From positions 1 through 27,059 of IMG/VR virus record IMGVR_UViG_3300010392_000854: a stretch of DNA of 27,059 nucleotides; one strand, given 5' to 3'. The position numbers were made by a program, and so were the translations under genes. Below the pieces are notes generated by a model that saw only the letters and a program-made list of their open reading frames with translations, was not told where the DNA came from and ran no database searches. Below, piece after piece: positions 1,739-27,059 of the stretch. This DNA comes from a virus. How positions within the stretch are numbered: position 1 is the first letter of the stretch; every line of letters starts with the position of its first letter.

Positions 1739-2107
1739 CTAGCGAGTGTCTTTGGCGGAGCACCAGTGCCGGATGGTACCGGAACCGGCAGAGCGGACAT
1801 ACTTGATGCGGACTCGCTCATACACGGCGTCATCGCCGGTCAAGACCAGGAAGCCGCTCACATCGCCACCCGTAACCACCGGCTGCGTGACGGTGGACGT
1901 GATGTCCTCCCAGTCGGTGTCGTCGGCGAGGTCGGGGCTACCCTTGTTGGTTGCCCACACCGTGACGGTGCACGCGAAGCTGGACGCGTCGTCGTCTACG
2001 TCCCACTGAATAGAGCCCGCCGGGGCGTGGGTCAGGTCCACCGGTACGCTGTAGCCCGTGGTGGTGGTACCATCTAGGGCGATCTTGTTCTCTGCTTTTT
2101 TCGTCAT
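1739..2107 (-). CDS. Small beta-rich virion protein (putative tail accessory)
   Basis: A 122-residue protein whose ATG overlaps the stop of the preceding ejection-protein gene (ATGA), so it is probably translationally coupled. It looks like a single beta-sandwich: alternating hydrophobic strands, a central TVTVWATNKG strand, a W-E-D-I-T turn, then a C-terminal pair (YERVRIKYVRSAGSG, TIRHWCSAKD). This pattern recurs in small phage structural proteins that bind or decorate fibres. The next gene downstream is the tail fibre, which suggests a role in fibre attachment or as a virion accessory protein. No enzyme motif is visible. The function is inferred from position and predicted fold only. Confidence 0.6.
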   Translation of the reverse strand: MTKKAENKIALDGTTTTGYSVPVDLTHAPAGSIQWDVDDDASSFACTVTVWATNKGSPDLADDTDWEDITSTVTQPVVTGGDVSGFLVLTGDDAVYERVRIKYVRSAGSGTIRHWCSAKDTR

Positions 2108-11400: not shown

Positions 11401-11497
11401 CGATGTCAAGGCACTTCGGCGGTCGCACCAGCTTGGGGTCAGTCTTGGTGTCGATACCCCCGGCAACGGGGTACTCTATGATGGGGAACCGGGCCAC
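8489..11497 (-). CDS. Tail nozzle / tail tubular protein B-like (1002 aa)
   Basis: A 1002-residue beta-rich protein. It begins FPIIEYPVAGGIDTKTDP and continues with a GSVVARFGYDAL segment; this start (GG-D-K-T-DP, then KxGxxxxRxGY) is characteristic of podoviral stabilisation/nozzle proteins. Near residues 735-800 it has DVGCSNPDSIVRLPNGIAF and SDKGIYLMGRNLQVVYIG, a signature of beta-propeller-like nozzle proteins related to T7 gp12. The start is a GTG in a TAGTG overlap with the preceding fibre-like gene, with AGGA four bases upstream; no internal ATG gives a better start. It would form the distal tube of the short tail, on the adaptor encoded at 12842-13582. It is longer than T7 gp12 (about 790 residues), so extra domains are likely. 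Confidence 0.8.
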   Translation of the reverse strand: MARFPIIEYPVAGGIDTKTDPKLVRPPKCLDIVNGMFTKHGSVVARFGYDALVPRDLDELSVDGLRSVDKRAQELVGFSDGAVYGRVLDRWGHRGNFTGGQLTTEPVADRPADQTEPMYAQLGDLRAHAWLEGTALYFYMEDSNRTQVVAPTEVNANASQPVLLATSTNFLLVFIDTYYSDIVVATCGQTIQSRRLMLGDLHGDELFTAAWDPDGDSDAATPVPWMVVCYRSTTGHRFLFYRSTGLAHPTKTPETQATAATSYITAHVHEGAGILFFYGALANTKSEWIPSDDGAKLSGPTLSATSTGGTAVSNNTGASDPANDISLLLQWGDDIREVRVSGDTSNTTPTYTGVFAYDVTLHGGATRRSALSATLNRDWVVPVQRSSTLQPTVVLLDPDATAVARVAPELTSVTARNQWQPGYLNGDQMQFVVNDKKIFTVEADQFSQYSQSGCRLVTLDLAAKTTTQEYRDSLYIAGSALFQYDGSTVVEQGFWFYPEVDLTQGTLGSAVSGQPYSRAMATGANTYLYFVCYEWYDATGKRWQSRAFSFTLTTADDPGTTNVVFDIPALQFSSKTGVEIAVYRTAASDSDGLAYRVSAVGELSAQNSSNTDVTFTDDTADASVKAGENFYASIGITDKTAPGAVSLITAHDDRLFAVNGEDSTQLVYTDRPEGFEGPAFSLPFVLQTPREGGDVTALASMDQFLLIFKEDRVYALRGEGPGNTLLGQDYTVPTLVSTDVGCSNPDSIVRLPNGIAFQSDKGIYLMGRNLQVVYIGADVEAYNDVTITGADLVPDENSVVFLTAGDRTLHFNYEHNAWSTFDGHAGLDSVVIDDDYYYLRTDGENVFKRAAHYQDDGAGVALTMELAWMVPSGVQRYWRCYLAQLLGNYSSEHTLEVDVAINYREYYEYTWAWDPSDGLALDTWGGNATLGGGEAWGISDLEKPDSVYMVSHSPRTQLVTAIKFRIRTVLPGTPGAGFELTAVALEYKSYGGAFRTPSGKHG

Positions 11498-12561
11498 TAT
11501 TCCTGACTCAGGGTGATAACCAGGTCCTCAAGAATCATGTTGGATGTGCCTGTCGCTGTGTAGCTGAAGAGGACGTAGTAGGTGGAGTCAGTGACTACCG
11601 TGTGATCAATACCCGCCGCAGACAGCTCACCCGTAGCAGTATCATTGTTGCTGCCGAGGCTAGACCCGCCGTTGTACAACGTCATGCTGAGGTCGTTGTT
11701 GTCGTTGTTGGTCACAACATTCACCTTGACCTCGTCGATGCGAGACCCTACGGGCAGCGTAAGCCCGTAGAAGAGGTTTTGTGTGCCCGAGTTAGCTGTG
11801 TTGTCCACTGCGCCGGCGTAGTTACCCCACCCACTGGACGAGGCAGGCGAGTACGCCAACATCGACACCGTGTACTCCGTGTCGGTGTACTTGTACGCAG
11901 CCAGCGGGGTGCTCGTGTCTGCTACGTTGATGTTCCCCGAACTGTCCATGCTCAGGGCGATCTCTGCCGCCGGGAGCGCCGAAGCGAACGTGACGTTGTG
12001 GTCCGGGAGGGTGAACGTCCTGTCGGCCGTAAGGGTGTCGGGCGAAAGCCGGTGACGGAACCCAGAGGCGTCGTGGAGATCCACGTCGGCAGTACGTACC
12101 TTAGCAAAGTCGTCTGCGCCAGCGCCATTCTTGAGCTGGTAGCTGTCCGAGGCGGAGTCCCAGTTGACGACCACGCCAGCCGAACCATAACCTGTGCCAG
12201 TGATCACGCCAGTAGCCGAGACGTTCAACGCCCCGTCCACCGAGATCTGGACTTCGTCGCCGTTGCTATTGGTGAACCACAGCTCGTCGAAGCCACCACC
12301 GCCGGTAGCGTCCGCCTGGGTCCAAAGGTGCTCCGAGCCAGGCGAGGCCACCTGGGTCGTGAACGCCAACCCCTTGACGTTGGTGACCAGCTGGGAATCA
12401 ACATCAAAGGTCGCGTCGATGTCCATGCCTGCCGGCGTCACCTTGTCCTCTAGGCGGCCAACGACCTCTGTGAGGATATCCGTGACGTCCTGGGAGGCGC
12501 CGGTCTCTGCGTCGCCAACCGCCGGGACTGTGTCTGAGAATGCGTCGCCGTATATGCCCAC
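11497..12561 (-). CDS. Fibre- or spike-like virion protein (354 aa)
   Basis: A 354-residue protein starting at GTG (12561) in a TAGTG overlap, with GAGG eight bases upstream. Residues ~1-60 are helical and may attach to the virion. Residues ~70-200 are Gly/Asp/Ser-rich short strands typical of phage fibres, including RLSPDTLTADRTFTLPDH. Residues ~225-354 read as a beta-sandwich ending TSNMILEDLVITLSQE. It lies between adaptor and nozzle genes, away from the main fibre at the left edge, so the virion probably carries two kinds of fibre or a collar/neck appendage. A head-fibre role is also possible. Family identity is by pattern only. Confidence 0.65.
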   Translation of the reverse strand: MGIYGDAFSDTVPAVGDAETGASQDVTDILTEVVGRLEDKVTPAGMDIDATFDVDSQLVTNVKGLAFTTQVASPGSEHLWTQADATGGGGFDELWFTNSNGDEVQISVDGALNVSATGVITGTGYGSAGVVVNWDSASDSYQLKNGAGADDFAKVRTADVDLHDASGFRHRLSPDTLTADRTFTLPDHNVTFASALPAAEIALSMDSSGNINVADTSTPLAAYKYTDTEYTVSMLAYSPASSSGWGNYAGAVDNTANSGTQNLFYGLTLPVGSRIDEVKVNVVTNNDNNDLSMTLYNGGSSLGSNNDTATGELSAAGIDHTVVTDSTYYVLFSYTATGTSNMILEDLVITLSQE

Positions 12562-14367: not shown

Positions 14368-15669
14368 CTAGGATGCTGAGGTGATGTTGAAGACTGCGTT
14401 CTCGAACATGTTGTGGCAGGCAAGGTTGCCGTACCACTTGCAGCGGAACTCCATTGCGTCGTCACCCGTGAGGTAACGCCACCGAGCACCGTCCGCCATG
14501 GCGACGTGAGGAAGTCCACCGAGGTGGTAGAACTTCCAGGTGTCACGCCTGAGAGCGTAGCCGCGGTCGTTGGGCATGTAGGATGCCGCGTAGATGGGGA
14601 TGTCGCCCTTGGACGACTTGTAGGTGAGCGACGGAAGACCGAAGCTCGCCTTGGTACCATCTTTGCGGAATGCCCGCGATCCCAGCTCCTGCTCGAGCTG
14701 GTTCCAGTTGTCGTGGCTGAGCCAGATGGAGTCCGGGCGAGCCCCGTACTTGAACATCTTGGCAAACAGCTTCTTGATGGTCAGCTCGATGCTGCCCTGA
14801 TCAGCCTGTCGCCAGCCCTGGAGGCGCTGGACGTCGTCGAGACGGTTCATTCCGAGGAACGTACCACTGGTCTCGGCAACGAGCGGAATCCAGTCCGCTA
14901 CGCCAACGATGAGGTTGCCGGCATCACCTTCGGCGGTGACGTCGAAGCCACTGGATCGGAAGATGAAGTCGTCGGCGGTGATCGCCGTGGTGATCGCGCC
15001 AGAGGTGGCGTCATAGTCGCCGTCGAGCTCGATGGTGCCTGCGTCGATGTCGATGCCGACAACGTACATGCCACCTGCGTCGAGACCGGTGTCGGTGCCC
15101 GAGCCATCCTCGGCGGTGTTCGTACCGACGCGCATACCGATGCTGAAGTTGCCGACGTCGTCAGCGTTCTCCAGAGTGATCACCTCATCAGCGATGGAAC
15201 CGACCACACCGAGGTTGCCGTTCTGGCCACGCCAGCACGCCTTCTCCAGGTCCTCAGAGACCTGCTCGATCATGTCCTCCATCTCTTTTTGCTTGACGGG
15301 GTAGAACGCGCCCTTCTTGTCGCGGGAGGCCATTGCGGCTTCCTCGTCGATGGTCACGTAGCCGTAGTACTTCTTCCGGTCGAGCTTGACCGTCTTGATC
15401 TTACTGGAGCTGTTGGCACCAGCAGACGCGGTCTGCGCCAGTGGAAGGGTTGGGCCAAGGCCTTGCGGCTTGGAGTACCGGTACGGGATGTGAAGGTGAC
15501 CGCCCGAGTCATCCACGGCATAGCCGGTGAACTCATCAGCCTTCGGTACCCACCGAAGGAGGTCGCGTTCGCGATTGGAAAGCTGCTTGACTACACGCTG
15601 TGGGAACAGCTCTTTGTAGGCAGCAGCCGCGGCGCTCAAGGTGAGCGCGGCAGAACTTGGTTGTGCCAT
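14368..15669 (-). CDS. Major capsid protein (HK97-like fold, inferred)
   Basis: A 433-residue protein following the scaffold gene, with GAAGGA nine bases before the ATG. An N-terminal helix (residues ~10-40, KELFPQRVVKQLSNRERDLL) is followed by an E-loop-like strand region (HLHIPYRYSKPQGLGPTLPL) and a long helix (~125-150, VKQKEMEDMIEQVSEDLEKA). Residues ~150-245 are an Asp/Thr/Gly-rich inserted beta domain. Then come VADWIPLVAETSGTFLGMNR and a C-terminal domain with PDSIWLSHDNWNQLEQELG, matching the order seen in many podoviral coat proteins. Position after portal and scaffold strongly supports the call. The inserted domain may be surface exposed. It should be the most abundant virion protein. 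Confidence 0.85.
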   Translation of the reverse strand: MAQPSSAALTLSAAAAAYKELFPQRVVKQLSNRERDLLRWVPKADEFTGYAVDDSGGHLHIPYRYSKPQGLGPTLPLAQTASAGANSSSKIKTVKLDRKKYYGYVTIDEEAAMASRDKKGAFYPVKQKEMEDMIEQVSEDLEKACWRGQNGNLGVVGSIADEVITLENADDVGNFSIGMRVGTNTAEDGSGTDTGLDAGGMYVVGIDIDAGTIELDGDYDATSGAITTAITADDFIFRSSGFDVTAEGDAGNLIVGVADWIPLVAETSGTFLGMNRLDDVQRLQGWRQADQGSIELTIKKLFAKMFKYGARPDSIWLSHDNWNQLEQELGSRAFRKDGTKASFGLPSLTYKSSKGDIPIYAASYMPNDRGYALRRDTWKFYHLGGLPHVAMADGARWRYLTGDDAMEFRCKWYGNLACHNMFENAVFNITSAS

Positions 15670-16731: not shown

Positions 16732-18672
16732 CTAGATGAGTGTACTGACGGGCGTGCCTTGCTGTGTAGTGGCGACTCCCGCCTGGAGGTTTCCTTCTGG
16801 CCCGACGTTCGTCGGTGCCAAGTTAGCCTGTAGTGCCGCGGGGTCCATGCCCATCTCGGCCATCGCCTGCTGCTCGCGGATCTTGTCGGCCGCGTTCGCT
16901 TGGGCGGTACCCTCGTCAACGAGGCCCTGCGCCTGTGCCATCCACGTCTCGTAGTTGTGGAGCACCTTCGGCGGGACTTCCTTCTGGTTGCGTCGGCGCA
17001 AGTAGGTGAGGTGCACCATGCGCATGCCGGTCTGGAGGTCCTGGTACCCCGAGGGGGCCGGGAACGGCTGAACGTCGCGGTCCAGTTTCTCCAAGGTGTG
17101 CTTGATGTCCCTGACGCGAGCCCCTAGCAGCTGTACCTCACCCTCTAGGTCGGGCGACGGCCCTTGAAGCTCCATCCCACGCTCGGGCGAAATCCACCCG
17201 TTGAAGATCCACGTGTTGATGGTGTCCTCGCGGCTCGCCGGCAGGCTGTTGAAGCTTGAGCTGGCCTCGATCTGAAGGTCGAAGTGGTTGCCGCTCTTGA
17301 GCAACTCGAGCAAGTGATCCCAGTCGATCTCGTCCACCAAGGTGCGATTCTGGAACGCAACCTTGCCCTTGGACTTGAACAGCTTGGCACTCAGGTACAT
17401 GATGTGCTTCGCGCACTCGATGTACATGTTCTCGTACCGGCGGGCCTGCTTGGCGAACCGCTGGTTCTCGATCATGTTGAATTCCCGCAGCGCCTTCGAG
17501 CTGTCTAGGCGGACGTTGTCCGGGAGCTTGGCTTGCGCCGACATCTGCGAGATACCGCCACGAGCGAACATACCGTTCTTCTCGCGCTCTCGCTCGTTGT
17601 ACAGCTCAGCCTGCACCGCCGGCCAGTTGACCATCTCGGGGCGGTTGCCCTGCACCCTGATGATCTTGGCGACGCTGTCGTCGAGCTGCTCTACAGAGAT
17701 CTCAGACCCGACGTCCGCAAAAATACGCGGCACCGCCACAATGTCCTGGCAGAGTCGAATCTTCCAGTCGAGCTCGTTGTATCGGATCTGACCGCTGGCA
17801 AGCTCTTCCACGAGCGGTCGCCCGTAGAACTGCCCCGGCAAATCGAACCACCGAAAGAACACGAACGGGAAGACGTCGCGGTCGTAGACCTCGTCCACCA
17901 GCGTGACGTTCTCCAGACAGATGATGTGCCTGCCAGGCTCGCCCATGTAGCCACGGCGCCACCCTTCGAGGACCACAGCGAACTCCGCCGACACGGCATT
18001 GTAGTCCGTGTAGTGACCGCTACCTGCCTCGTGGGCCACCCGGATCTCAGTCTCGAAGTCCGGGTACGCCGCAATCAGCATGTCCTTGGGCACTAGCTTG
18101 CGCTGAAATAGCTCCTGGGGCATGCCGTACCGGGCGCATCGCTCATCGACCACGATCTCGTCGGGGTGCACCCGCTCGACAAAGTAGTCTACCTCGTTGC
18201 CGTTCTCGTCGTACTCGAAGTCCAGCTTGAGGCCAGCGGTAGCCGCCCACGTCGAGTCATCAAAGATCTGGTGGCCCTTGTCGTAGACGTTGTGACGCTT
18301 GAACTCGGCCTCTATGTAGTGGCCGATGTCCTGGGCCATGCGCTCCACCGTGAAGGACGCGTCCTTGACCACGGGTGTCGGCTTCGGCCTGTTCTTCCCC
18401 ACGAGCGCCGAGATGGTCTCCACCACCTGCGACGTGATGTTCTCATGGGTGGTGCTGATGGGAGCGTAATCCTGGGGCCGCTCCTCTTGAGTGCCCCAGT
18501 CGATGCCCGGGATACGCCGGTTCGTGTACAGGCAGGCGTTCAGGAAGTTGGCCTGTTTGATCGCTACCTGATTCTGCTCGATACCAGAGACCTCCGAGAA
18601 CAGACACTCGTGTGCCATGTCGTCGGGGTAGTCGTACCAGCGTTGATCGTCGTATCCTGGGCGGTCGGTCAT
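16732..18672 (-). CDS. Portal protein (646 aa)
   Basis: A 646-residue protein with AAGGA seven bases before the ATG, overlapping the preceding stop (ATGA). Residues ~78-105 (ENITSQVVETISALVGKNRP) followed by K-P-T-P carry the usual portal opening, where an Asn-containing helix leads into NRPKPT. It continues with a large mixed domain containing VFFRWFDLPGQFYGRPLVEE and a helical segment near 395-430. The final ~110 residues are Gln/Ala-rich helices, consistent with the portal crown or barrel. It would form the twelve-subunit ring through which DNA is packaged by the terminase encoded upstream and to which the adaptor binds. Length and gene order fit P22- and T7-type portals. Confidence 0.85.
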   Translation of the reverse strand: MTDRPGYDDQRWYDYPDDMAHECLFSEVSGIEQNQVAIKQANFLNACLYTNRRIPGIDWGTQEERPQDYAPISTTHENITSQVVETISALVGKNRPKPTPVVKDASFTVERMAQDIGHYIEAEFKRHNVYDKGHQIFDDSTWAATAGLKLDFEYDENGNEVDYFVERVHPDEIVVDERCARYGMPQELFQRKLVPKDMLIAAYPDFETEIRVAHEAGSGHYTDYNAVSAEFAVVLEGWRRGYMGEPGRHIICLENVTLVDEVYDRDVFPFVFFRWFDLPGQFYGRPLVEELASGQIRYNELDWKIRLCQDIVAVPRIFADVGSEISVEQLDDSVAKIIRVQGNRPEMVNWPAVQAELYNEREREKNGMFARGGISQMSAQAKLPDNVRLDSSKALREFNMIENQRFAKQARRYENMYIECAKHIMYLSAKLFKSKGKVAFQNRTLVDEIDWDHLLELLKSGNHFDLQIEASSSFNSLPASREDTINTWIFNGWISPERGMELQGPSPDLEGEVQLLGARVRDIKHTLEKLDRDVQPFPAPSGYQDLQTGMRMVHLTYLRRRNQKEVPPKVLHNYETWMAQAQGLVDEGTAQANAADKIREQQAMAEMGMDPAALQANLAPTNVGPEGNLQAGVATTQQGTPVSTLI

Positions 18673-19004
18673 GAGTCGTCCTTGCTCGTGTCGCTGTTAG
18701 CTCTCGAGTAGGGCGAGACGTATTCTGGGGGTTTTCCGTCGGGCCAGAGCGCGGGGTTCTGTCGGAAGTCCGCGTGTTCCTCTGGGTCGGGTTGAAGCTT
18801 CTGGCGACGCTCGGCGGCCGCCATGTCTAGCAGCTGCCGCGGGTTCGAGGGGGTCGAGAACTTGGGTGCCTCTTCCTCCTCCTCGACGCCGTGGAACTCG
18901 ATGCGCAGGTCGCCGTAGCTGAACGACGAGACGCCGTGATCAGCTAGGGCGGCACACAGCTCCTCGATGAGAGCTGCGTTAGGGATGTCACCTATCCCCG
19001 CCAA
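18669..19004 (-). CDS. Small acidic hypothetical protein before portal (111 aa)
   Basis: A 111-residue protein that overlaps both neighbours: its end overlaps the portal start (ATGA), and its start overlaps the peptidase gene by 13 bases. The start is a TTG (19004) with GAGGG about 11 bases upstream; there is no in-frame ATG near. The N-terminus forms a helix (NAALIEELCAALADHG), then a strand, an acidic patch (EEEEEA) and a Pro-rich disordered C-terminus. I do not recognise it. Small proteins here can be portal partners or packaging accessories, but nothing in the sequence proves that. Confidence 0.55.
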   Translation of the reverse strand: MAGIGDIPNAALIEELCAALADHGVSSFSYGDLRIEFHGVEEEEEAPKFSTPSNPRQLLDMAAAERRQKLQPDPEEHADFRQNPALWPDGKPPEYVSPYSRANSDTSKDDS

Positions 19005-19489
19005 CGGGCTTTGTACCCTCGGTTGTCGTAGTGCACGAAGTTGTCGTAGTGCCCTAGGCCACCCTCAGGGATAGCACCTATGCGAATCAGGCCCTCCATG
19101 ATCTGGTAGACCTGACCGGAAGTGTACCCTGCGACCACGAAGTCGATAGCGAAGCCCGGGCGTCCGCCGTCGGCGGCCTCGGCGCGAACCTCGTCGCCGT
19201 GAACGTGGCCCCACATGTGGAAGCTGCGAGGTGCACCGCCTACGTACTGGTTGTACCTCGGCGGCCGGTAAGCGCTGATGACGGTAACAGGCCGGCCCAC
19301 GAAGGTGCGGAAGACCTGGATGCCCTTCTCGAGGAACACCTCTACCTCGGGGATTAGGCACTCGGGAATGAGTGTGCCTGTGCGAGGCATCAGCTCCGAC
19401 TCGTTGAAGTCTGTGCTGAGCTGCCGCGCCCCTGGTGCCACATAGTCCGCGTCGGAAGCGGGAATATATGGTCTGCGCTGCTGTGTCAT
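18992..19489 (-). CDS. M15-type zinc peptidase (D-Ala-D-Ala peptidase-like)
   Basis: A 165-residue protein with GGAGG eight bases before the ATG. It follows the Peptidase M15_3-type pattern: LSTDFNESEL near residue 24, VTVISAYRPPRYNQYVGGAP (68-87), the first metal ligand in SFHMWG (His91), the Asp of FAIDF (Asp116), and the last His in HYDNFVHYD (His153). Family members hydrolyse D-amino-acid peptide cross-links in peptidoglycan. Normally His and Asp sit in a compact SxHxxGxAxD motif; here about 17 extra residues (positions 95-112) separate them, so the loop is enlarged. It lies between terminase and portal, unusual for a classical endolysin, and no holin is seen next to it. It may be a lysis enzyme or a virion-associated wall-degrading factor. 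Confidence 0.8.
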   Translation of the reverse strand: MTQQRRPYIPASDADYVAPGARQLSTDFNESELMPRTGTLIPECLIPEVEVFLEKGIQVFRTFVGRPVTVISAYRPPRYNQYVGGAPRSFHMWGHVHGDEVRAEAADGGRPGFAIDFVVAGYTSGQVYQIMEGLIRIGAIPEGGLGHYDNFVHYDNRGYKARWRG

Positions 19490-19493
19490 CTAC

Positions 19494-21209
19494 TTACCCT
19501 CCTAGTAGCTTTTTGAACTGCGATTGGTCGTACGGGTTGAAGAACTTCGGGCCTTTTTCGTAGTGCTGGTTCGTCCACGGCTTTTCAATCTTGTGGAAAC
19601 CGGTATTCGAAGTTCGGGCACTGGCGTGAAGCGCTTCAATTTCCTGTTGCTCTTGGAGCTCGAAGAATTGTGGTGAACCGTAAGCCGGGGCCTGCTTGAC
19701 CTTCTTGAAGAAGTGGTGGAACGCAAAGCGCCACGTATAGAGGCAGGCGTCTGAGAGGTGGTTGTCTGCTTTCGCGTCTTCCTTGATGCGGCCAGTGCGA
19801 ATCGCCCCTTTGCGGCCGAGTCCACGGAAGTCCCACTGTAGGGCCATCCATTCGTTGAACAGCTGACCGCCGTGTAGAACCCTGAGCCGCCCCTCGTGGA
19901 GATCCGAGTTGAGCAGCTCGATGTGATCAAACTTCTTCGACTTCTCGGCCGGCTCGATAAAGTAGCCGTATTGCTTGTTGACCGTCTCGACGATCATCTT
20001 GCCCTGGGCGCCCATGTCGGCGACCATGTTCTGAATCTTGCCAAACCGCTCCACGATGCGCTGAATGACCTTGACGATCATCGGCACAATCAAGTGCGGG
20101 TGCTTCTCCTCGTAGACCTGGTACAACACCGGGTTGGTGGGCGAGTACGCCATCACCACAAAGGCACTGTCGTCCTCGAAGCCGAGGTCCATGCCCAAGA
20201 TGTACCGCCAGTCGTCGTGGCCAGCCTCGTTGAGCGGTAGCCCGTGCTCGTTCCGGCCATCGCCGTACTCCGTACGCCACGTGCACCGGCAAGCCTCGGG
20301 CGGCCCGTCCTGGCGCATGATGCCGCTGAGGGCGTACACCATCGTGTCGTTGGTCGAGACCCACCGCCCCAGGTACTCGCGCACCCAGATGGGGTTGTCG
20401 TCGGCCCACTTCTGGGCCTGCTTGACCATGAGAGCGTTCTTCCAGATGTCTGGGCGAAAGACGTTCTCGGCCACGGTCCAGTGGTGCCGGCTCCAGTTCG
20501 GAATCATCGGCTGCCCGTTGTACAGCGGGTTGTTCTTCCAGAACGGCTCCGGGTTGTAGGCATCGATCGTCCGAAGATCGCCGTCCTCGTCCTGCCAACC
20601 CGCGCACGTCGCCTCGTAGAAGAGCCCGCTCAAGAACTTGCCCGGGGTCCCGATCAGCGCGATAGTGCCGCTGACGTCGTTCGTCGCCGGCATCAGCACC
20701 TCGTGGATCAGCTCCCGGAAGATGGCCTCGCGCAACGACTTACACTCGTCAACGACCACCAACTTGTAGGCGCCACCCCTGAGCTTCTCGATGTCGGCCA
20801 AGCTCTCGGCGCCGCACAACATGATCTTCGACCCGTTGGGCAGGTAGCAGACACGCTCGCCCACCTTTGGGTCGGCCCCCAGGTGATACTTCTCAGAGAA
20901 CTCACGCAGAGGGGCCCAGTACAGCTTCGTCGCGTTCTTCAGCGACAACGTACAGATGACGACCTCGCACCCAGGGTTCTCGAGAGCCACCACAAGGCTG
21001 TACGAGATCGCCGTATGCGTCTTGCCGGCCCGCCTCGGGCACAGCAGCGATTTCCACCGAAACGGGTCCTCGACAAAGTAGCACTGGCGCTCGAAAAGGT
21101 CGCCCTTGATCGCTAGCGCCGCCTTGCAATCCCGCTCCGCCTGCTGTTGCGCCGCCGAAGTGCGCTGGGCGCTTTTCTTCAGCAAGAAGTCGGTTTTGCG
21201 GGTGCTCAT
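19494..21209 (-). CDS. Terminase large subunit
   Basis: A 571-residue DNA-packaging motor protein with both expected domains. The ATPase has a Walker A motif CPRRAGKT (57-64), Walker B LVVVDE (150-155) and coupling motif LIGTPG (185-190). The C-terminal RNase H-like nuclease has Asp341 in GMDLGFEDD, Asp398 in VADMGAQG and Asp487 in HLSDACLY. All key residues are present, so it should be active. It cuts the concatemer and pumps DNA through the portal encoded downstream. Its ATG overlaps the stop of the GNAT-like gene (ATGA) with only a weak ribosome site, suggesting coupling. About 80 residues after the nuclease form a basic, aromatic tail that may contact the portal. Confidence 0.95.
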   Translation of the reverse strand: MSTRKTDFLLKKSAQRTSAAQQQAERDCKAALAIKGDLFERQCYFVEDPFRWKSLLCPRRAGKTHTAISYSLVVALENPGCEVVICTLSLKNATKLYWAPLREFSEKYHLGADPKVGERVCYLPNGSKIMLCGAESLADIEKLRGGAYKLVVVDECKSLREAIFRELIHEVLMPATNDVSGTIALIGTPGKFLSGLFYEATCAGWQDEDGDLRTIDAYNPEPFWKNNPLYNGQPMIPNWSRHHWTVAENVFRPDIWKNALMVKQAQKWADDNPIWVREYLGRWVSTNDTMVYALSGIMRQDGPPEACRCTWRTEYGDGRNEHGLPLNEAGHDDWRYILGMDLGFEDDSAFVVMAYSPTNPVLYQVYEEKHPHLIVPMIVKVIQRIVERFGKIQNMVADMGAQGKMIVETVNKQYGYFIEPAEKSKKFDHIELLNSDLHEGRLRVLHGGQLFNEWMALQWDFRGLGRKGAIRTGRIKEDAKADNHLSDACLYTWRFAFHHFFKKVKQAPAYGSPQFFELQEQQEIEALHASARTSNTGFHKIEKPWTNQHYEKGPKFFNPYDQSQFKKLLGG

Positions 21210-22191: not shown

Positions 22192-22521
22192 CTATTGGGC
22201 CGCCGGTGATCTGTTTACGCAGCCAGCGATGTGGTCCTCGCGCAGAAAGGCAAGGTCCTCGTTGTTGGCATCGACCGCCACAGGCTGCACCTTCTTGATG
22301 ACGCGAACTTCGTCGCCCACCTGGATGCCTGAGTCGCAGTTCTTGCCAACGGCTCGCACGAAGATCTGGCCCTTGGACGCCTGAGACTCGACGGGGATGT
22401 ATAGGCCGCCCTTGGTACGCTCAGCCGAGACAAACTCGACTAGCACGTACTTGTTGAAGGGGGTGATCTGGTCGATGTCCAGCTTGGGCGTCTTGTCGGC
22501 GGTCTTGATAAGTAGTGACAT
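22192..22521 (-). CDS. GroES-like co-chaperonin (Cpn10 family)
   Basis: I choose the ATG at 22521 (109 residues), with GGAAAG eight bases upstream, over a TTG 15 bases earlier. The Cpn10 landmarks are in order: ITPFNKYVLVEF (first strand), the mobile loop ERTKGGLYIP (34-43) with the hydrophobic tip that binds the chaperonin, KGQIFVRAVG, IQVGDEVRVI (66-75) and the C-terminal DLAFLREDHIAG. The N-terminal extension and the long loop around 44-51 are phage-like. T4 gp31 is the known precedent: a phage GroES substitute needed with host GroEL to fold its coat protein. As first gene of the late operon, it is well placed to help fold the coat protein. No GroEL is encoded in the window, so it would work with the host chaperonin. 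Confidence 0.85.
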   Translation of the reverse strand: MSLLIKTADKTPKLDIDQITPFNKYVLVEFVSAERTKGGLYIPVESQASKGQIFVRAVGKNCDSGIQVGDEVRVIKKVQPVAVDANNEDLAFLREDHIAGCVNRSPAAQ

Positions 22522-22635
22522 ACGAGGTCTTTCCAACGTAAGGGGTTATTTAGCCACGCTTGAACGCGTTGCCAGAACGGGCAAGACTCAGCTAAAGCAC
22601 CGGGAAGCGTAGCTAGCTTGTCTGCCCCGTCGCGA

Positions 22636-22710
22636 GCTATGTATTCTTCTGTCGCTGTTCTCAGTACCCAGAGACGGGCTCGACAGCAGCGCTCGGTCAG
22701 AATACATAGC
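22636..22710 (-). repeat. 12-bp perfect inverted repeat in the late leader
   Basis: GCTATGTATTCT at 22636-22647 is the exact reverse complement of AGAATACATAGC at 22699-22710. Inside it CTGTCG and CGACAG can pair, and then TCTC with GAGA, giving one long nested hairpin. It lies downstream of the late promoter and upstream of the GroES-like gene, so the late mRNA leader would contain it. Each arm also reads as an extended -10 element (TATGTATTCT), so paired promoters facing each other are an alternative. Confidence 0.75.
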
Positions 22711-22748
22711 GTACTTTGGCGGTTCTAACCTCCAAAGGGTTCCCCTCT

Positions 22749-22777
22749 AGTATACCACAACGGATATCGCGTGTCTG
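22749..22777 (-). promoter_or_regulatory. Late-operon promoter, sigma70-type with extended -10
   Basis: Minus strand: -35 CAGACA (complement of 22772-22777), 17-bp spacer, -10 TATACT (complement of 22749-22754) preceded by TG-N, an extended -10. Transcription would start near 22742 and give a leader of about 220 bases before the GroES-like start codon. It is the best sigma70-like match found in the window. Confidence 0.6.
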
Positions 22778-22794
22778 TAAGCCACCTCACAGAC
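22773..22794. promoter_or_regulatory. Operator candidate overlapping the late -35 box
   Basis: GTCTGT at 22773-22778 and ACAGAC at 22789-22794 form a perfect inverted repeat with a 10-base spacer. The left arm covers the -35 box of the late promoter, so a dimeric protein bound here could repress or activate late transcription. Confidence 0.45.
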
Positions 22795-22984
22795 CTGGAA
22801 GAAAGTTGACCGCCGAGGTACCGCCGCACGTGAATTCAGGGGGTTACGAAGGCCGGGTTCTGGGAAAAAATTCTGGGGGCCAAAACCGTGTGTGCTTTCC
22901 ATCGCCTCCCTTCAGTCGGCGAAAATTTTGCGCCCCCTCCCTGGGGAAACGCACTTTTTGCGTGTCAAGTGCAAAATTTGCGCT

Positions 22985-23001
22985 GGTGACTCCCGACCCC
23001 A
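22985..23001 (+). repeat. GACTCGAGACCCC element, diverged copy
   Basis: GGTGACTCCCGACCCCA matches the copy at 23068-23083 in 14 of 16 positions; the central GA is replaced by CC, which breaks the dyad. It lies directly after the GTGCAAAATTTGCGC site. Confidence 0.55.
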
Positions 23002-23003
23002 CT

Positions 23004-23018
23004 TGACGCAGCGCGTCA
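23004..23018. promoter_or_regulatory. Perfect 15-bp inverted repeat TGACGC-AGC-GCGTCA
   Basis: Six-base arms with a three-base centre, overlapping a CTTGACG hexamer region. It is consistent with a binding site for a dimeric regulator. No copy of this exact site was seen elsewhere. Confidence 0.45.
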
Positions 23019-23036
23019 TGGCACGGGTCTTGCCGG
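23019..23036. repeat. TGGCACGGnnCTTGCCG repeat, copy 1
   Basis: TGGCACGGGTCTTGCCG matches 23264-23280 in 15 of 17 positions; both are imperfect palindromes (GGCA-N-GG ... TGCC). A shorter relative is at 23235-23249 (TGGCACGGGGGGTGC). Confidence 0.5.
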
Positions 23037-23067
23037 TGGGGCCTGTTGACCATGCCTGGCGTGTCGT

Positions 23068-23083
23068 GGTGACTCGAGACCCC
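23068..23083 (+). repeat. GACTCGAGACCCC element
   Basis: GGTGACTCGAGACCCC, a directional near-palindrome centred on CTCGAG. Seventeen bases upstream is TTGACC, a possible -35 box, but the element itself is not a recognisable -10. Confidence 0.65.
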
Positions 23084-23208
23084 TGAGCTCGTGTTCAGAG
23101 GTCTGTTGTCCCCACGCAAAGATTGCGCTTGACAGCAAAGATTGCGCAATAAAGATCTTGACACAGTGATTACGCGGGGTTGGGGGCGTGTCAAGCTAAA
23201 TCGTACTA

Positions 23209-23223
23209 GGGACTCGAGACCCC
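23209..23223 (+). repeat. GACTCGAGACCCC element
   Basis: GGGACTCGAGACCCC, followed by AG as in the copy at 26568-26587. Same orientation as the other copies. Confidence 0.7.
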
Positions 23224-23263
23224 AGTCGATTTTCTGGCACGGGGGGTGCATTGGAGCTCGGCC

Positions 23264-23280
23264 TGGCACGGCCCTTGCCG
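23264..23280. repeat. TGGCACGGnnCTTGCCG repeat, copy 2
   Basis: TGGCACGGCCCTTGCCG, the partner of 23019-23036. Its dyad centre is at the CCC. Confidence 0.5.
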
Positions 23281-23379
23281 CACGTTGTCACGCCGGGTTA
23301 CACCTCCCCCTGTCAAGCGCAAAGATAGCAGGGCCAGGCGCAAACTTAGCGCACACAGGGCGGCCGAGGTGTGATAGAT

Positions 23380-23394
23380 TGGAATTCTATTCCA
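23380..23394. promoter_or_regulatory. Operator-like inverted repeat upstream of the first early gene
   Basis: TGGAAT-TCT-ATTCCA, a perfect dyad with six-base arms and a three-base centre, 40 bases before the first early start codon. An AT-rich GATAGATT just upstream could be part of an early promoter, but no good -35 box is in register. Confidence 0.45.
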
Positions 23395-23433
23395 GTCGTT
23401 CACAATCACCGCAACCCAGGAGCCAAGTCAACC

Positions 23434-23610
23434 ATGCCGACCCCCAAGAACGAGCGCACCCTACGCCGCCTCGCTGCTCTCATCCGGGACTATGCCGACG
23501 ATGTCCAAGCGCTTCGCACCGTGCCTCACTCCAAGCTACAGAGCACCTTGCACAGTTTGCTAGACGACATGCACGCAGACGTGAACCGCTTCGCCCAACA
23601 CGTCAAGTAG
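23434..23610 (+). CDS. Small helical hypothetical early protein (58 aa)
   Basis: I choose the ATG at 23434 because AGGAG lies 11 bases upstream; an in-frame GTG at 23371 has no ribosome site and would run through the operator-like repeat. The 58 residues are helical and charged: an N-terminal basic tail (PTPKNERTLRR), a helix AALIRDYADDVQALR and a second helix KLQSTLHSLLDDMHADVNRF. This is a two-helix protein that may dimerise. It is the first gene after the control region, so it may be made early and in quantity. No family is recognised. The leader sequence AACCCAGGAG is shared with the next gene at 23695. Confidence 0.6.
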   Translation: MPTPKNERTLRRLAALIRDYADDVQALRTVPHSKLQSTLHSLLDDMHADVNRFAQHVK

Positions 23611-23622
23611 ACCAGTAGTCGC

Positions 23623-23652
23623 TTGACACTGCCCTAGTCCACCGACTAGGGT
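23623..23652 (+). promoter_or_regulatory. Internal early promoter with an operator-like dyad in the spacer
   Basis: TTGACA at 23623-23628 and TAGGGT at 23647-23652 are 18 bp apart. Between them lies a perfect inverted repeat, CCCTAGTC-CACC-GACTAGGG (23632-23651). It could be a promoter controlled by a protein at the dyad, or an mRNA hairpin between the first two early genes; there is no U-tract for a terminator. Confidence 0.45.
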
Positions 23653-23694
23653 AGCTGTGAGGTTACTACCAACCCCGAACCCAGGAGATAACCG

Positions 23695-23880
23695 ATGACA
23701 ACCACCGACACCAAGACCCCGACCCCCACTCAGCGCATTGTCGCCACCGGTGCTCGCATGGGCCTGCAGCGTTGCCGCGATGGCGTACTCAGGCCGGCGG
23801 CGGACACTGCCGAGCCACTGCCCCTGGATTTGCCGTACGCCCTGCGGTGCATCGCCCTTGCTGGCGTGGAGGTCTACTAA
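23695..23880 (+). CDS. Small hypothetical early protein (61 aa)
   Basis: A 61-residue protein with AGGAG seven bases before its ATG, preceded by its own possible promoter. The N-terminus is Thr/Pro-rich and flexible (TTTDTKTPTPTQ), then a short basic stretch (MGLQRCRDGVLRP), and a C-terminal hydrophobic helix (LPYALRCIALAGVEVY). Its TAA overlaps the ATG of the next gene (TAATG), so they are coupled. I do not recognise it. It is too short to infer a role. Confidence 0.6.
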   Translation: MTTTDTKTPTPTQRIVATGARMGLQRCRDGVLRPAADTAEPLPLDLPYALRCIALAGVEVY

Positions 23881-24086
23881 TGGCCAACCCCACGCACCGT
23901 ATCATGGCCGTCCGTACCTACCCCGGCGGCGCCAACAGCTACACTAGCCGCGAGATGGTAGGGTTTGCCTACTCGGCGAGTGAGGCACGCGACAAGGTCG
24001 CACAGGCTGTGTTCCATGGGGCAGACGGCGCCAGCGCAGTACTGCTCTGCAACAATGTCACAACTCACCGACTAGGGGACCAGTAG
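23880..24086 (+). CDS. Small hypothetical early protein (68 aa)
   Basis: A 68-residue protein starting at the ATG in a TAATG overlap; longer in-frame extensions upstream only shadow the preceding gene. It reads as beta-alpha-beta: strand IMAVRTYPGG, helix SASEARDKVAQAVF, strand ASAVLLCNN, reminiscent of small ferredoxin-like folds. It lies in the early operon between unknown genes. No catalytic motif is visible. Confidence 0.6.
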   Translation: MANPTHRIMAVRTYPGGANSYTSREMVGFAYSASEARDKVAQAVFHGADGASAVLLCNNVTTHRLGDQ

Positions 24087-24087
24087 C

Positions 24088-24459
24088 ATGATTGGACCAA
24101 TCCAGAGGCCCGACTACCCCGCACTGCTTGCGGCCATCCGCACCACGCGAGGCAAGAACAAGGGGCAGCTGCGCCGCTCACGTGGCAAGCTTTCCGGGCG
24201 AGCGTATTACCTTTGGCGCTGGACCCGCTTCCACGCCGGTATTGATACCACGCTTCCGATGGTGGCTGAATGGGAGCTGGACCCCTCCGACCACTACCGC
24301 GACAGCCTGAACGCGGCGGCCGAGTACATTGCTACGTCTGCAAGTATCATCGGCATGCAGGGCAACTGGTTGCGTTTCCTCGACCGTGTTCCCGCGGGTA
24401 CCTCGGTAGGACGACACGTATGGCGACGGGCCTTCTACGGCGAGGGGGGTGCGTCATGA
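24088..24459 (+). CDS. Hypothetical early protein (123 aa)
   Basis: A 123-residue protein with AGGGGA nine bases before the ATG, one base after the preceding stop. The first half is basic (TTRGKNKGQLRRSRGKLS) and then aromatic (YYLWRWTRFHAG), compatible with nucleic-acid binding. The rest contains helices (YRDSLNAAAEYIATSASII) and a basic C-terminus. Its stop overlaps the next ATG (ATGA). No known family is recognised. Confidence 0.6.
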   Translation: MIGPIQRPDYPALLAAIRTTRGKNKGQLRRSRGKLSGRAYYLWRWTRFHAGIDTTLPMVAEWELDPSDHYRDSLNAAAEYIATSASIIGMQGNWLRFLDRVPAGTSVGRHVWRRAFYGEGGAS

Positions 24460-24728
24460 GCGCACAACGAATCAACCGACTAATGCGATGGGGCTGGCTA
24501 CTCTGGCATGCGGCCCCCCTTCACGATGAGTGCCCATGGGACCGCGTAATGCGCGGCAGCCGATACTTGCGGAGCTTACCCCACGACGACATACTGTGGG
24601 CGATGGTAGGCTGGCGTGCGGCCGATTGTGGGCAGTGGTCCAGCCATGTAGAGCGGGGCTTGGTATCAGACACTGCGTGCCAGTTTACTGTCATGCACCC
24701 CGGCGGCCGACTGGCCCTAAATCGCTGA
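24456..24728 (+). CDS. Trp-rich hypothetical early protein (90 aa)
   Basis: A 90-residue protein starting at the ATG in an ATGA overlap with the gene before it. It is unusually rich in Trp (MRWGWLLWH, CPWDR, ILWAMVGWRA, QWSSH) for its size, and basic overall. The Trp and His spacing suggests a compact fold or a surface for binding a partner. No transmembrane segment of normal length is convincing. The family is not recognised. Confidence 0.6.
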   Translation: MSAQRINRLMRWGWLLWHAAPLHDECPWDRVMRGSRYLRSLPHDDILWAMVGWRAADCGQWSSHVERGLVSDTACQFTVMHPGGRLALNR

Positions 24729-24748
24729 ACCTCCACGAAAGGCACACA

Positions 24749-25144
24749 ATGGCCCTATACGACACAATCACCATTTCCGACCTAACTGAGTACCACTACA
24801 ACTCCGGCGAGGTCACAACCGATTTCCGGTTCTACCTCATACGGAACGGTGAGCCTGCGTTCGTCCGGGCGACAATCATCTGGGATGTCTACTGGGAGCA
24901 ACGGCACCGCGGCCCCGTGTGTGTGGGACGTACCCCGGTGGCCTGCCGTCTCGCCAACGTAAACAAAGCGGTCCGCCTAGATGGCGAGACAATCAAGCTA
25001 CGCACGCTGCTGGACCTTATGGAGACGGCTGAGTGGCTGAAGGTAGACGAAGGCCAGGACGCCTTGGCTGTGCTCTGTGGTATCGCGTGCAACGCACTAG
25101 AGGCACACGCCTACGAAACCAACCCGGACGGAAGGGCACGCTAG
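24749..25144 (+). CDS. Hypothetical early protein (131 aa)
   Basis: A 131-residue protein with AAAGG seven bases before the ATG. The first half is beta-rich (DTITISDLTEYHYNSGEVTT, FRFYLIRNGEPAFVRATIIW); the second half has two helices (TLLDLMETAEWLKVDEGQDA, LAVLCGIACNALEAHAYET). The stop TAG is followed at once by the ATG of the next gene. No motif identifies its function; the alpha/beta layout is compatible with a small binding protein. Confidence 0.6.
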   Translation: MALYDTITISDLTEYHYNSGEVTTDFRFYLIRNGEPAFVRATIIWDVYWEQRHRGPVCVGRTPVACRLANVNKAVRLDGETIKLRTLLDLMETAEWLKVDEGQDALAVLCGIACNALEAHAYETNPDGRAR

Positions 25145-25864
25145 ATGCTACTCTACGAAGGGCCGTCGCTCATCAATGGCGAGCCTATCGTGGCCATTGC
25201 CACGGTCAAATCAAGCAATACAAAGACCGGTGACATGATTCAGACGTGGATTCTACCGCGCGACGTGGCCCCGCATCACGCAGTCAAATCTGGCGCAGAT
25301 GCTAGTGTGTGCGGCGATTGCCCTCACCGGCACTACAGCGGCGGGGCGTGCTACGTACTGCCCTTCCAGGGCCCGCGTGGTGTGTGGGTGGCGTGGAAGC
25401 GAGGTTCATACGATACGCCCAAGCATCGCAGGGCATGGGACCGCGCACGTGGCAAGTATGTCCGACTGGGGGCGTACGGTGACCCTGCCGCGGTACCTGC
25501 TGAAGTGTGGCGCAGGCTAGTCGCCGATGCTCCGGGCTGGACTGGCTACACTCACCAGTGGACGAAACCATACGCGGCTGAGTTGCGCGGGCTGTGCATG
25601 GCGAGCGTAGACAGCGAGGCAGAGGCAGAGCAGGCGGTGGCCATGGGTTGGCGGTACTTCCGCGTGCTAGGCTCCACCGAGAGAATGCCCGACGTGACTG
25701 GCTCCATCGAGTGCCTAGCGGACTCCGCGGGTCGCACGTGCGCTGAGTGCCGCTTGTGCAATGGCGCACGCACAAGGCGAGCCAAGCAACCCAAGAGCAT
25801 CTTTATCGACGTGCACGGAGCACGGTCCAAGCGATTCAGGCCCAAAGGGTTGGTGGTAGTATGA
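25145..25864 (+). CDS. Conserved-looking phage protein with two Cys clusters (239 aa)
   Basis: A 239-residue protein with GGAAGG nine bases before the ATG. It has two likely metal sites: C56-x2-C59-x9-C69 with a nearby His (CGDCPHRH), and C190-x8-C199-x2-C202-x2-C205. Between them are highly structured segments, VRLGAYGDPAAVPAEVW and GWTGYTHQW, and ASVDSEAEAEQAVAMGWRYF, then FIDVHGARS near the end. I have the impression that proteins of this type occur in many environmental phages as unknowns. The CxxCxxC pattern with an extra Cys would suit an Fe-S cluster or zinc. Function is unknown; the DNA-mod/radical-SAM-like alternatives are guesses. It is the largest early gene here. Confidence 0.7.
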   Translation: MLLYEGPSLINGEPIVAIATVKSSNTKTGDMIQTWILPRDVAPHHAVKSGADASVCGDCPHRHYSGGACYVLPFQGPRGVWVAWKRGSYDTPKHRRAWDRARGKYVRLGAYGDPAAVPAEVWRRLVADAPGWTGYTHQWTKPYAAELRGLCMASVDSEAEAEQAVAMGWRYFRVLGSTERMPDVTGSIECLADSAGRTCAECRLCNGARTRRAKQPKSIFIDVHGARSKRFRPKGLVVV

Positions 25865-26004
25865 AAACGAAACCGACTAATCAGTGTGCAAGTTGCGGCC
25901 ATCCCTTTGTAGAGTGGTGGGGCACGACGTGCTCATGCCCACGACACCGTAAGATACCGGTACAGGTACCTGTGTTTGAGGCACGCAAGCGGGGTAACTC
26001 ATGA
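25861..26004 (+). CDS. Mini zinc-ribbon protein (47 aa)
   Basis: A 47-residue protein joined to both neighbours by ATGA overlaps. It carries CASCGHPF and a later CSCPRH, giving C-x2-C ... C-x-C, which could bind one zinc ion. The rest is basic and Pro-rich. Proteins this small often act as adaptors for nucleic acids or host enzymes. Nothing further can be said. Confidence 0.6.
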   Translation: MKTKPTNQCASCGHPFVEWWGTTCSCPRHRKIPVQVPVFEARKRGNS

Positions 26005-26522
26005 CGCGCCGGCCCCGTGACTCGCAGCGTACGGCGGTCTACCGCTGGCAATACCGCGCCGGCATTGTGGAGCACGGCAGCGAACCACAACTCACTCTTG
26101 AGGAATGCCGAGGTTTGGCACACCGAGTGTGGCAAGAGTACCCGACGGGCCCTCGCATCACGGCACGCCCGACTGTGGTAGCTAGCCGTACAGCCACGTC
26201 CAAGCGAGCAGGCTACTGGTACGCCCGGAATCAGATCACCTTGCCACCGTGGGCACTGCAAGCGGGTGTCGTGCTACATGAGGTAGCGCACGGCATCCTA
26301 GCTAGTTGGCTGGACCCCCGTGCCGTTGCGGCGCATGGCCCTCGGTTCGTGCGGGTGCTGGCGGAGCTTGCTATCGCCTACATGAGTCGGCCGCCGGTGG
26401 TCGTGGTTGGCGCACTAGACCGCGCCCGATGTAGTACCACGCACAAACTCACTTTCCTACCCGCGCGGCAATCTGTGAAGTGTGCCGCATTGATGGCGAT
26501 GCCCTGGAGACAATTATCATGA
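26001..26522 (+). CDS. Zinc metallopeptidase-like protein with HExxH motif (173 aa)
   Basis: A 173-residue protein with a gluzincin/SprT-style active site: H93-E94-V-A-H97 in VVLHEVAHGI and a third candidate ligand His112 in AAHGPRFVRVL, 14 residues after the second His. The preceding part has a strand-turn KRAGYWYARNQITLPPWA, as expected just before such a helix. Small soluble peptidases with HEVAH...AHGP are frequent in actinobacterial and phage genomes as unknowns. It has no signal peptide, so it probably acts inside the host cell. Possible targets include host DNA-protein complexes (Wss1/SprT by fold analogy) or defence proteins. Its start overlaps the preceding stop (ATGA) and its end overlaps the next start. 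Confidence 0.75.
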   Translation: MTRRPRDSQRTAVYRWQYRAGIVEHGSEPQLTLEECRGLAHRVWQEYPTGPRITARPTVVASRTATSKRAGYWYARNQITLPPWALQAGVVLHEVAHGILASWLDPRAVAAHGPRFVRVLAELAIAYMSRPPVVVVGALDRARCSTTHKLTFLPARQSVKCAALMAMPWRQLS

Positions 26523-26764
26523 CCGACTGCAAACGTGGCAAGGTGGGGTCTACAGACCTGAGCTCCACTGGGGACTCGAGACCCCAGCGCCAGGCGGGGG
26601 CGGTAACCCCCAAGTCGTGGTACTGCGACGTGTGCCTGATACGCGTGGACGTGGACGCATGCTGCACCGAGTGCGGCATTGACGCAAAGGCGTCATTCTG
26701 GCGCGAAGTGAAGCGAGAGAAGATGCTAGACTTCCGCGAGGGCTTCGAAGAGTGGGACCGGTGA
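26519..26764 (+). CDS. Small zinc-ribbon protein (81 aa)
   Basis: An 81-residue protein starting at the ATG in an ATGA overlap. Cys36, Cys39, Cys48/49 and Cys52 (CDVCLI ... CCTECG) form a zinc-ribbon-like set, followed by a charged helix REVKREKMLDFREGFEEW. The first 30 residues look disordered, and their codons contain a full 20-bp copy of the GACTCGAGACCCC element, so this stretch may serve the DNA more than the protein. Confidence 0.6.
   Translation: MTDCKRGKVGSTDLSSTGDSRPQRQAGAVTPKSWYCDVCLIRVDVDACCTECGIDAKASFWREVKREKMLDFREGFEEWDR
26568..26587 (+). repeat. GACTCGAGACCCC element inside an early gene
   Basis: CTGGGGACTCGAGACCCCAG, the longest and most symmetric copy: six-base arms CTGGGG/CCCCAG, one A-A mismatch on each side of CTCGAG. 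It shares 17 bases with the copy at 23209 and is in the same orientation, but lies 3.4 kb away and within coding sequence. Confidence 0.7.
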
Positions 26765-27059
26765 GTACCTGCGACTGTGGTCGGGGGCCGGTGTTCGCTG
26801 GCGGCGACAGCTGCAAACGGTGCTGGTATCTTGAGACAGGCTACACGGTGCCTGTAAGCCGCTACAGGACGGCTGGTTGCGCTGCGGTTATCGATGCCCT
26901 GCGGACAGGCCCTGCCACTGTAAGCCAGTTGGCGCAGTGTACGGGGCGGTACCCGGAGGCCATCGGGCGCAGTCTTCGAAACGTTTTGCTGCCAAGCGGC
27001 CGAGTAGTATCAGGTGCGCGTGGTAGGTATGCACTAGCAATCAGGAGGGACCTATGGGA
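26761..27059 (+). CDS. Zn-cluster plus winged-helix DNA-binding protein (3' end not in the window)
   Basis: This frame starts at a GTG in a GTGA overlap with the zinc-ribbon gene and is still open at the right edge, with at least 99 residues. It has an N-terminal Cys set C4-x-C6-x11-C18-x2-C21 (CDCGRG, CKRCWY) and then a winged-helix-like domain, residues 42-92: helix AVIDALRTG, helix-turn-helix TVSQLAQCTGRYPEAIGRSL and wing GRVVSGARGRYALA. The order suits a small transcription regulator. Its position in the early operon, next to a copy of the GACTCGAGACCCC element, makes it a candidate operator-binding protein. The frame probably ends soon, since another start lies in it at 27054. Confidence 0.65.
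   Translation, partial: MSTCDCGRGPVFAGGDSCKRCWYLETGYTVPVSRYRTAGCAAVIDALRTGPATVSQLAQCTGRYPEAIGRSLRNVLLPSGRVVSGARGRYALAIRRDLW
27043..27059 (+). promoter_or_regulatory. Ribosome-binding site and start codon of the next gene
   Basis: AGGAGG (27043-27048) lies five bases before ATG (27054-27056), in a different frame from the winged-helix gene. This is the strongest ribosome site of the early operon, so a well-translated gene probably begins here; only its start is visible. Confidence 0.6.

Follow-up and report, generated by a model that had tools for sequence, protein, structure and literature searches.

A 27,059-base linear virus fragment in IMG/VR (IMGVR_UViG_3300010392_000854; GC content, 0.62), referred to here as the window, carries at positions 23434-27059 an operon of small genes, almost none of which were found in other viruses. 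We tentatively read this operon as an early accessory module made up mostly of orphan genes together with one widespread early metalloprotein, the product of the seventh gene (g7), which is possibly a noncanonical enzyme of a radical-SAM-like kind; in our estimate, this reading falls slightly short of an even chance. The original prediction, made from the letters of the window, had singled out the region as the most likely place for an undescribed system. What we found there was rather one widespread family, DUF7227, which is described but uncharacterized, lying among unrelated orphans.

Layout of the operon

The operon consists of eleven plus-strand open reading frames (ORFs; g1 to g11) that are divergent from the structural genes. 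Six of its ten junctions are overlaps, namely, one TAATG (g2/g3), four ATGA (g4/g5, g7/g8, g8/g9, and g9/g10), and one GTGA (g10/g11). At g6/g7, a stop directly abuts a start (TAGATG), a single nucleotide separates g3 from g4, and the remaining two junctions are gaps of 84 and 20 nt. Eleven or more small coupled genes, joined by these same three types of overlap, had been predicted, and both points are borne out. Since g11 is open at the end of the contig, the operon appears to run on beyond the window.

Codon usage, trained on 18 structural genes of the window and scored against 500 base shuffles, backs eight of the eleven ORFs (g1 to g4, g6, g7, g9, and g10), for each of which at most 1 of the 500 shuffles reached the observed score; g6 gave the strongest signal in the operon. 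Scores for g5, g8, and the truncated g11 were not above those of the shuffles (P = 0.33, 0.69, and 0.16, respectively).

Family, spread, and predicted fold of g7

The g7 gene (25145-25864, plus strand) encodes a protein of 239 amino acids, and residues 1 to 233 match phrog_2554 in a PHROGs profile search (E = 3.3e-73), covering only positions 287-521 of the 529-column profile. Its relatives match the Pfam model PF23872 (DUF7227) in 44 of 50 cases; g7 itself gave no match to that model at an E value of 1. On these sequence matches, g7 is a clear member of PHROG 2554/DUF7227, for which neither Pfam nor PHROGs states a function. Most members are ~240 amino acids long, compared with the 529 columns of the PHROG profile. 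A deltaproteobacterial metagenome-assembled genome (L113) has a DUF7227 ORF of ~680 to 727 amino acids at ~9824-12007, long enough that the domain may be part of a fusion.

Relatives of g7 were found at 513 IMG/VR loci and in 148 annotated phage genomes, where nearly all of them are unannotated or labeled "hypothetical." The phages concerned include cluster A and Bongo-type mycobacteriophages, Gordonia phages, Klebsiella/Raoultella Mydoviruses, Caulobacter phage S2B, Microcystis phage LMM01, and Roseobacter and Ruegeria phages. Outside phage records, relatives were recovered from 6 plasmids, one of the two inspected having a phage terminase gene, and from bacterial genome contigs, at 24 loci.

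The motifs of g7 are NxKTG, C56xxC59...C69Y, RxGxYGDPxxxP, TGYTH, MAS, C190...C199xxC202xxC205xG, and H224. Seven Cys residues and H224 are invariant in all 82 to 83 relatives with a residue at the position, and all are present in g7. NxKTG, RxGxYGDP, TGYTH, and S154 are likewise invariant or nearly so among the relatives. An AlphaFold2 model of g7, with a predicted local distance difference test (pLDDT) score of 91.2 and a predicted template modeling (pTM) score of 0.89, has core strands at residues 31-38, 105-111, 132-136, 152-155, 171-175, and 218-222, alternating with helices. The segment with three Cys residues follows the first core strand, and the segment with four precedes the last. 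Weak Foldseek matches of this model in the PDB include partial TIM barrels (ribulose-phosphate epimerase, TYW1 [probability, 0.13], and EAL). DpdA/TGT (queuosine-type DNA modification) was also considered, for the Cys...His C terminus, and set aside: the 50 best fold matches in the PDB included no TGT, genes of the 7-deazaguanine pathway not having been searched for in these phages.

Relationship of g7 to GP88 and possible links to DUF5131 and radical-SAM enzymes

Among viral models (BFVD), Foldseek matched g7 to DUF7227 proteins and then to GP88 (E = 9e-4; probability, 0.97), followed by a Gp37/Gp68 protein (E = 0.019; probability, 0.87) and, weakly, by radical-SAM proteins. We regard DUF7227 and GP88 (PF17338) as homologous sister families because this structural match is joined by two others: the GP88 protein of the archaeal virus HGTV-1 independently matches PHROG 2554 (1.1e-7), and profile-profile alignment of the two families with hhalign gave a P value of 5.9e-6, versus 0.076 for a reversed control. 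The GP88 Pfam model gave no g7 match at an E value of 1. A predicted GP88 model (pLDDT, 90) has the same strand order as that of g7, and the two families share a GNxK start, a Cys...Cys...C[YF] segment, R..(E/G).GD(F/P), Y(T/S), and a Cys-rich end with a final His. GP88 differs from g7 in having neither YGDPxxxP nor TGYTHQW and in often missing the C-terminal Cys set, which a rough pattern count showed to be frequently lost; its N-terminal Cys residues are nearly invariant.

The steps beyond GP88 are of unequal strength. That from GP88 to DUF5131 (PF07505, phage Gp37/Gp68) is weak, with the GP88 Pfam model reaching a DUF5131 protein at an E value of 0.024 and hhalign giving a P value of 0.038; the best supporting link is the one between DUF5131 and Radical_SAM (PF04055; hhalign P = 3e-4). 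DUF5131 shares with g7 the three Cys residues that follow the first core strand, the last of them in a CY pair, but is without the C-terminal Cys4/His. The likeness of g7 to radical SAM lies in the order of strand, Cys cluster, and strand with a Gly-acidic-Pro element (GDP; compare GEP) and, further on, in a Ser after strand 4. The PDB gave no sequence match to g7 or its alignment and none to DUF5131 or GP88. Because the radical-SAM reading is built on strand order, on Cys after strand 1 and Gly-Asp-Pro after strand 2, and on a chain of unequal links, we offer it as a hypothesis, and the connection of g7 to DUF5131 and the radical-SAM enzymes is suggestive only.

Genomic position and neighbors of g7 homologs

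Several g7 homologs lie at or near a genome end, and in T7-like phages and in cluster A and Bongo-type mycobacteriophages the gene is one of the first in the early region. In Caulobacter phage S2B, the homolog is third in order from the terminal repeat and lies ahead of the RNA polymerase gene; it is the terminal (first) gene in Bongo, the second in RhynO, the third in Piro94, and the third from the record end in CRP-811. LUZ100 has a truncated copy downstream of the host-type promoters P1/P2, which its authors assign to the host RNA polymerase as driving early genes of a presumed host-takeover region (PMC10134795). Early in lytic growth, cluster A phages express their right terminus, by Pleft, at a very high level (PMC6550527). 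Taken from gene position, an early role for g7 is likely, and we call the operon of the window "early" on the strength of its divergence from the structural genes and of these homologs.

A total of 129 neighbors of g7 homologs, searched against Pfam and PHROGs, were diverse, with no recurrent partner and no pathway enrichment. They included one ArdA and a few methyltransferases, and anti-defense functions were not enriched. Few families recurred among the neighbors of 66 homologs; the main ones were terminase, integrase, and primase, which point to a genome region and not to a partner. We also searched with the family alignment for g7 in nine records, all possibly incomplete, eight of which are relatives of the window by terminase. 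Only one of these terminase relatives carries g7, and it shares no other early gene with the window; none of the terminase large subunit relatives examined has the window's other early genes. That relative (L086/L012; IMGVR_UViG_3300010392_000413) has an early block of AAA-like, DUF7873, and PD-(D/E)XK genes unrelated to that of the window. The comparison of gene content proposed with the original prediction thus shows that g1 to g11 are not a conserved set, and g7 behaves as a solo, partnerless accessory gene.

Other genes of the operon

Nine of the eleven ORFs are without a homolog in the libraries and collections searched. Ahead of g7 on the plus strand lie g1 (58 amino acids; 23434-23610), g2 (61 amino acids; 23695-23880), g3 (68 amino acids; 23880-24086), g4 (123 amino acids; 24088-24459), g5 (90 amino acids; 24456-24728), which has an ATGA overlap with g4, and g6 (131 amino acids; 24749-25144). 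Downstream, also on the plus strand, are g8 (47 amino acids; 25861-26004), which has ATGA overlaps on both sides and is Cys rich (CxxC...CxC); g10 (81 amino acids; 26519-26764), which is zinc-ribbon-like (CxxC...CxxC); and g11 (26761-27057, open at the contig end), in which a Cys-rich N terminus is followed by a segment that, by eye, looks like a helix-turn-helix. Nothing significant was found in Pfam or PHROGs for g1 to g6, g8, or g10, and g11 was unmatched in these two libraries and in NCBIfam. Among the ORFs scanned against NCBIfam, g3 to g7, g10, and g11 had no match, and PADLOC, whose models cover defense and not anti-defense systems, matched none of g1 to g10. By tblastn, the nine orphans had no relatives in 50,697 phage records plus the fetched loci. 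IMG/VR scans with g6 and g9 were empty, and a concatenation of g1 to g6 and g8 to g11 gave only two weak matches in the phage collection, both to g9.

The remaining gene, g9 (173 amino acids; 26001-26522, plus strand), encodes an HExxH protein (HEVAHG...AHGPRF), and the two phages that gave weak tblastn matches did so at the same part of it. It matches the SprT-like model PF10263 (E = 0.0019; 18.5 bits) below the cutoff of 25.6 and TIGR04338 (E = 2.1e-6; 27.7 bits) below the cutoff of 90. It has the HExxH motif and the downstream AHGPRF histidine in common with these families but scores under both curated cutoffs, and it is probably a diverged SprT/TIGR04338-like metallopeptidase-type protein and not a formal family member. 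The expectation that almost all of the genes would be without a family therefore holds for the nine orphans and fails for g7 and, more weakly, for g9. Genes with a Cys cluster or HExxH are present, as had been noted, although they number five (g7 to g11) and not four.

Possible roles of g7 and of the operon

The analysis shows how the operon is laid out, that g7 belongs to DUF7227 and has its invariant residues, how g7 is predicted to fold, that it is homologous to GP88, and that several homologs are early in position; its metal type, chemistry, target, and benefit we infer as follows. On our reading, the window has the beginning of the early operon of a tailed phage, a lineage-specific accessory gene set, in which g7 is a gene carried alone at or close to the end that many unrelated phages transcribe first. 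Its product is predicted to be a small, partial TIM-barrel-like enzyme. A metal or iron-sulfur (Fe-S) cluster would be bound by the three invariant Cys residues that follow the first core strand, beside the conserved YGDP/TGYTH active site, and a second metal by the four C-terminal Cys residues and the His. As the most likely mechanism, a noncanonical radical-SAM-like (or other Fe-S-dependent) reaction would modify a host target or nucleic acid soon after the DNA enters and so ease takeover or escape.

Several observations weigh against this reading. Foldseek found no significant match for g7 in the PDB, with nothing below an E value of 0.3, and none for the GP88 model either. Direct hhalign comparison of the g7 profile gave P values of 0.29 with Radical_SAM and 0.27 with DUF5131, neither of them significant. 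The Cys spacing of g7 is CX2CX9C and not the CX3CX2C of radical SAM; some radical-SAM enzymes do have noncanonical spacings. Zinc is as compatible with the sequence as Fe-S. The homologs in Ro1, LMM01, and KB12-38 are not at the front of an operon, and in the window g7 is only seventh. In the literature, no functional study was found, nor any paper under PHROG 2554, DUF7227, DUF5131, or their Pfam accessions.

Some of the same evidence would suit a non-redox zinc protein with two structural Cys sites, which would inhibit or adapt a host protein, RNA, or DNA by binding to it, as numerous small takeover proteins of phages do. CxxC-rich sites commonly bind zinc, neither g7 nor GP88 gave a significant match to an enzyme fold, and the neighboring g8, g10, and g11 also resemble small zinc-binding proteins. 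However, the invariant NxKTG, RxGxYGDP, TGYTH, S154, and H224 lie at or just after predicted strands and look like an active site, and GP88 loses the C-terminal Cys set while keeping the N-terminal Cys residues, unlike what would be expected of two equivalent structural sites. We consider a purely structural zinc protein somewhat unlikely. The operon might also be a set of ordinary early accessory genes for replication or DNA metabolism, with g7 and the SprT-like g9 acting in DNA transactions. In RhynO, a SprT-like gene, a Cas4-family exonuclease, and a DnaB-like helicase are on the same strand downstream of the DUF7227 gene, and toprim/primase and PD-(D/E)XK genes occur near some other homologs. 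Such a role seems distinctly improbable to us. None of the operon's ORFs matches a family of replication or nucleotide metabolism, so that the outcome named as refuting the original prediction did not arise, and no single pathway is enriched around g7 homologs.

Alternatively, g7 may be a moron-type gene for superinfection exclusion or counterdefense, and its patchy spread would then be due to its being useful against particular hosts only. Its solo, partnerless occurrence over unrelated phages, genome contigs, and plasmids, its presence in only one of the terminase relatives, and the antirestriction gene adjoining one homolog are consistent with this, yet anti-defense families are not enriched around the homologs and the defense models of PADLOC gave no match, and we judge this explanation unlikely. 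The takeover or anti-defense island that had been proposed for the region survives in part. The analysis supports an accessory operon of the early type, made up of small genes specific to the lineage, and g7 homologs are at the host-promoter end of the early region in several well-annotated phages. A takeover or anti-defense role is plausible for g7 from its position and distribution; the PADLOC and neighborhood results lend the anti-defense side of the proposal no support.

Control region upstream of the operon

A divergent control region with clustered repeats occupies positions 22537-23433. Elements of the GCGCAAWNTTWGC type have nine matches, versus 0.31 expected, all at 22919-23352, where they alternate with TGTCAAG/CTTGACA. 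Six of the window's seven TGTCAAG/CTTGACA sites are at 22963-23628, in or just past the control region. The near-palindrome GGKGACTCGAGACCCC has seven two-strand matches, versus 0.86 expected; near-palindromes of 16 to 20 bp lie in the control region at 22985-23000, 23068-23083, and 23208-23223 and within g10 at 26570-26585, the intragenic copy being 20 bp (CTGGGGACTCGAGACCCCAG). The 17-bp palindrome core is not a common phage motif, occurring in 2 contigs in IMG/VR. Judged by their sequence, the repeats of the control region resemble operators or a replication origin. The near-palindromes are possible repressor sites, the g10 copy being intragenic as in stoperator systems.

A candidate promoter for g2 can be read at 23622-23655 (plus strand), where TTGACA precedes the inverted repeat CCCTAGTC-CACC-GACTAGGG, which extends into a -10-like TAGGGT. 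The arms form a perfect 8-bp inverted repeat between and over the -35/-10 positions upstream of g2. A consensus promoter scanner did not call this site.

Structural genes and affiliation of the phage

In profile searches, the minus strand of the window carries packaging and structural genes. These include the terminase large subunit (19494-21209; phrog_2, E = 4e-25), the head-tail connector/portal (16732-18672), an SU10-type major capsid protein (14368-15669), and an M15 peptidase (18992-19489). Among named phages, the terminase is nearest to those of HTVC010P-type Pelagibacter podoviruses, with ~33% identity over a quarter of its length; it has 17 relatives in IMG/VR, the best at 53%. The right-hand 10 kb of the window has no nucleotide-level relative in the phage collection. 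The virus is a tailed phage whose terminase is, by sequence, distantly related to those of the HTVC010P-type podoviruses.

This podovirus-like phage has its own GroES/Cpn10-like gene (22192-22536, minus strand), a co-chaperonin gene that matches phrog_3188 (E = 8.8e-9) and, above the cutoff, PF00166 (E = 3.3e-9). It is the upstream-most gene of the packaging and structural block and adjoins the divergent control region. At the structural end of the window, two long minus-strand ORFs of 901 and 737 amino acids (2104-7023) are without a Pfam or PHROG match.

Implications

The interest of the region rests on a possible unassayed enzyme family, the rest of the operon being ordinary accessory phage dark matter. 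If our reading of g7 is correct, many unrelated phages, among them cluster A mycobacteriophages, T7-like phages, and Bongo-type phages, carry near the early front a gene for a protein whose metal site is strictly conserved and whose fold has no solved relative. A broader proposal, which we hold to be doubtful, is that DUF7227, GP88, and DUF5131 belong to a single superfamily of small, noncanonical radical-SAM-like enzymes, often made right after DNA entry, that modify a common host target. Were that so, these families would represent a widespread, unassayed takeover chemistry in phages of many bacterial phyla and in at least one archaeal virus.

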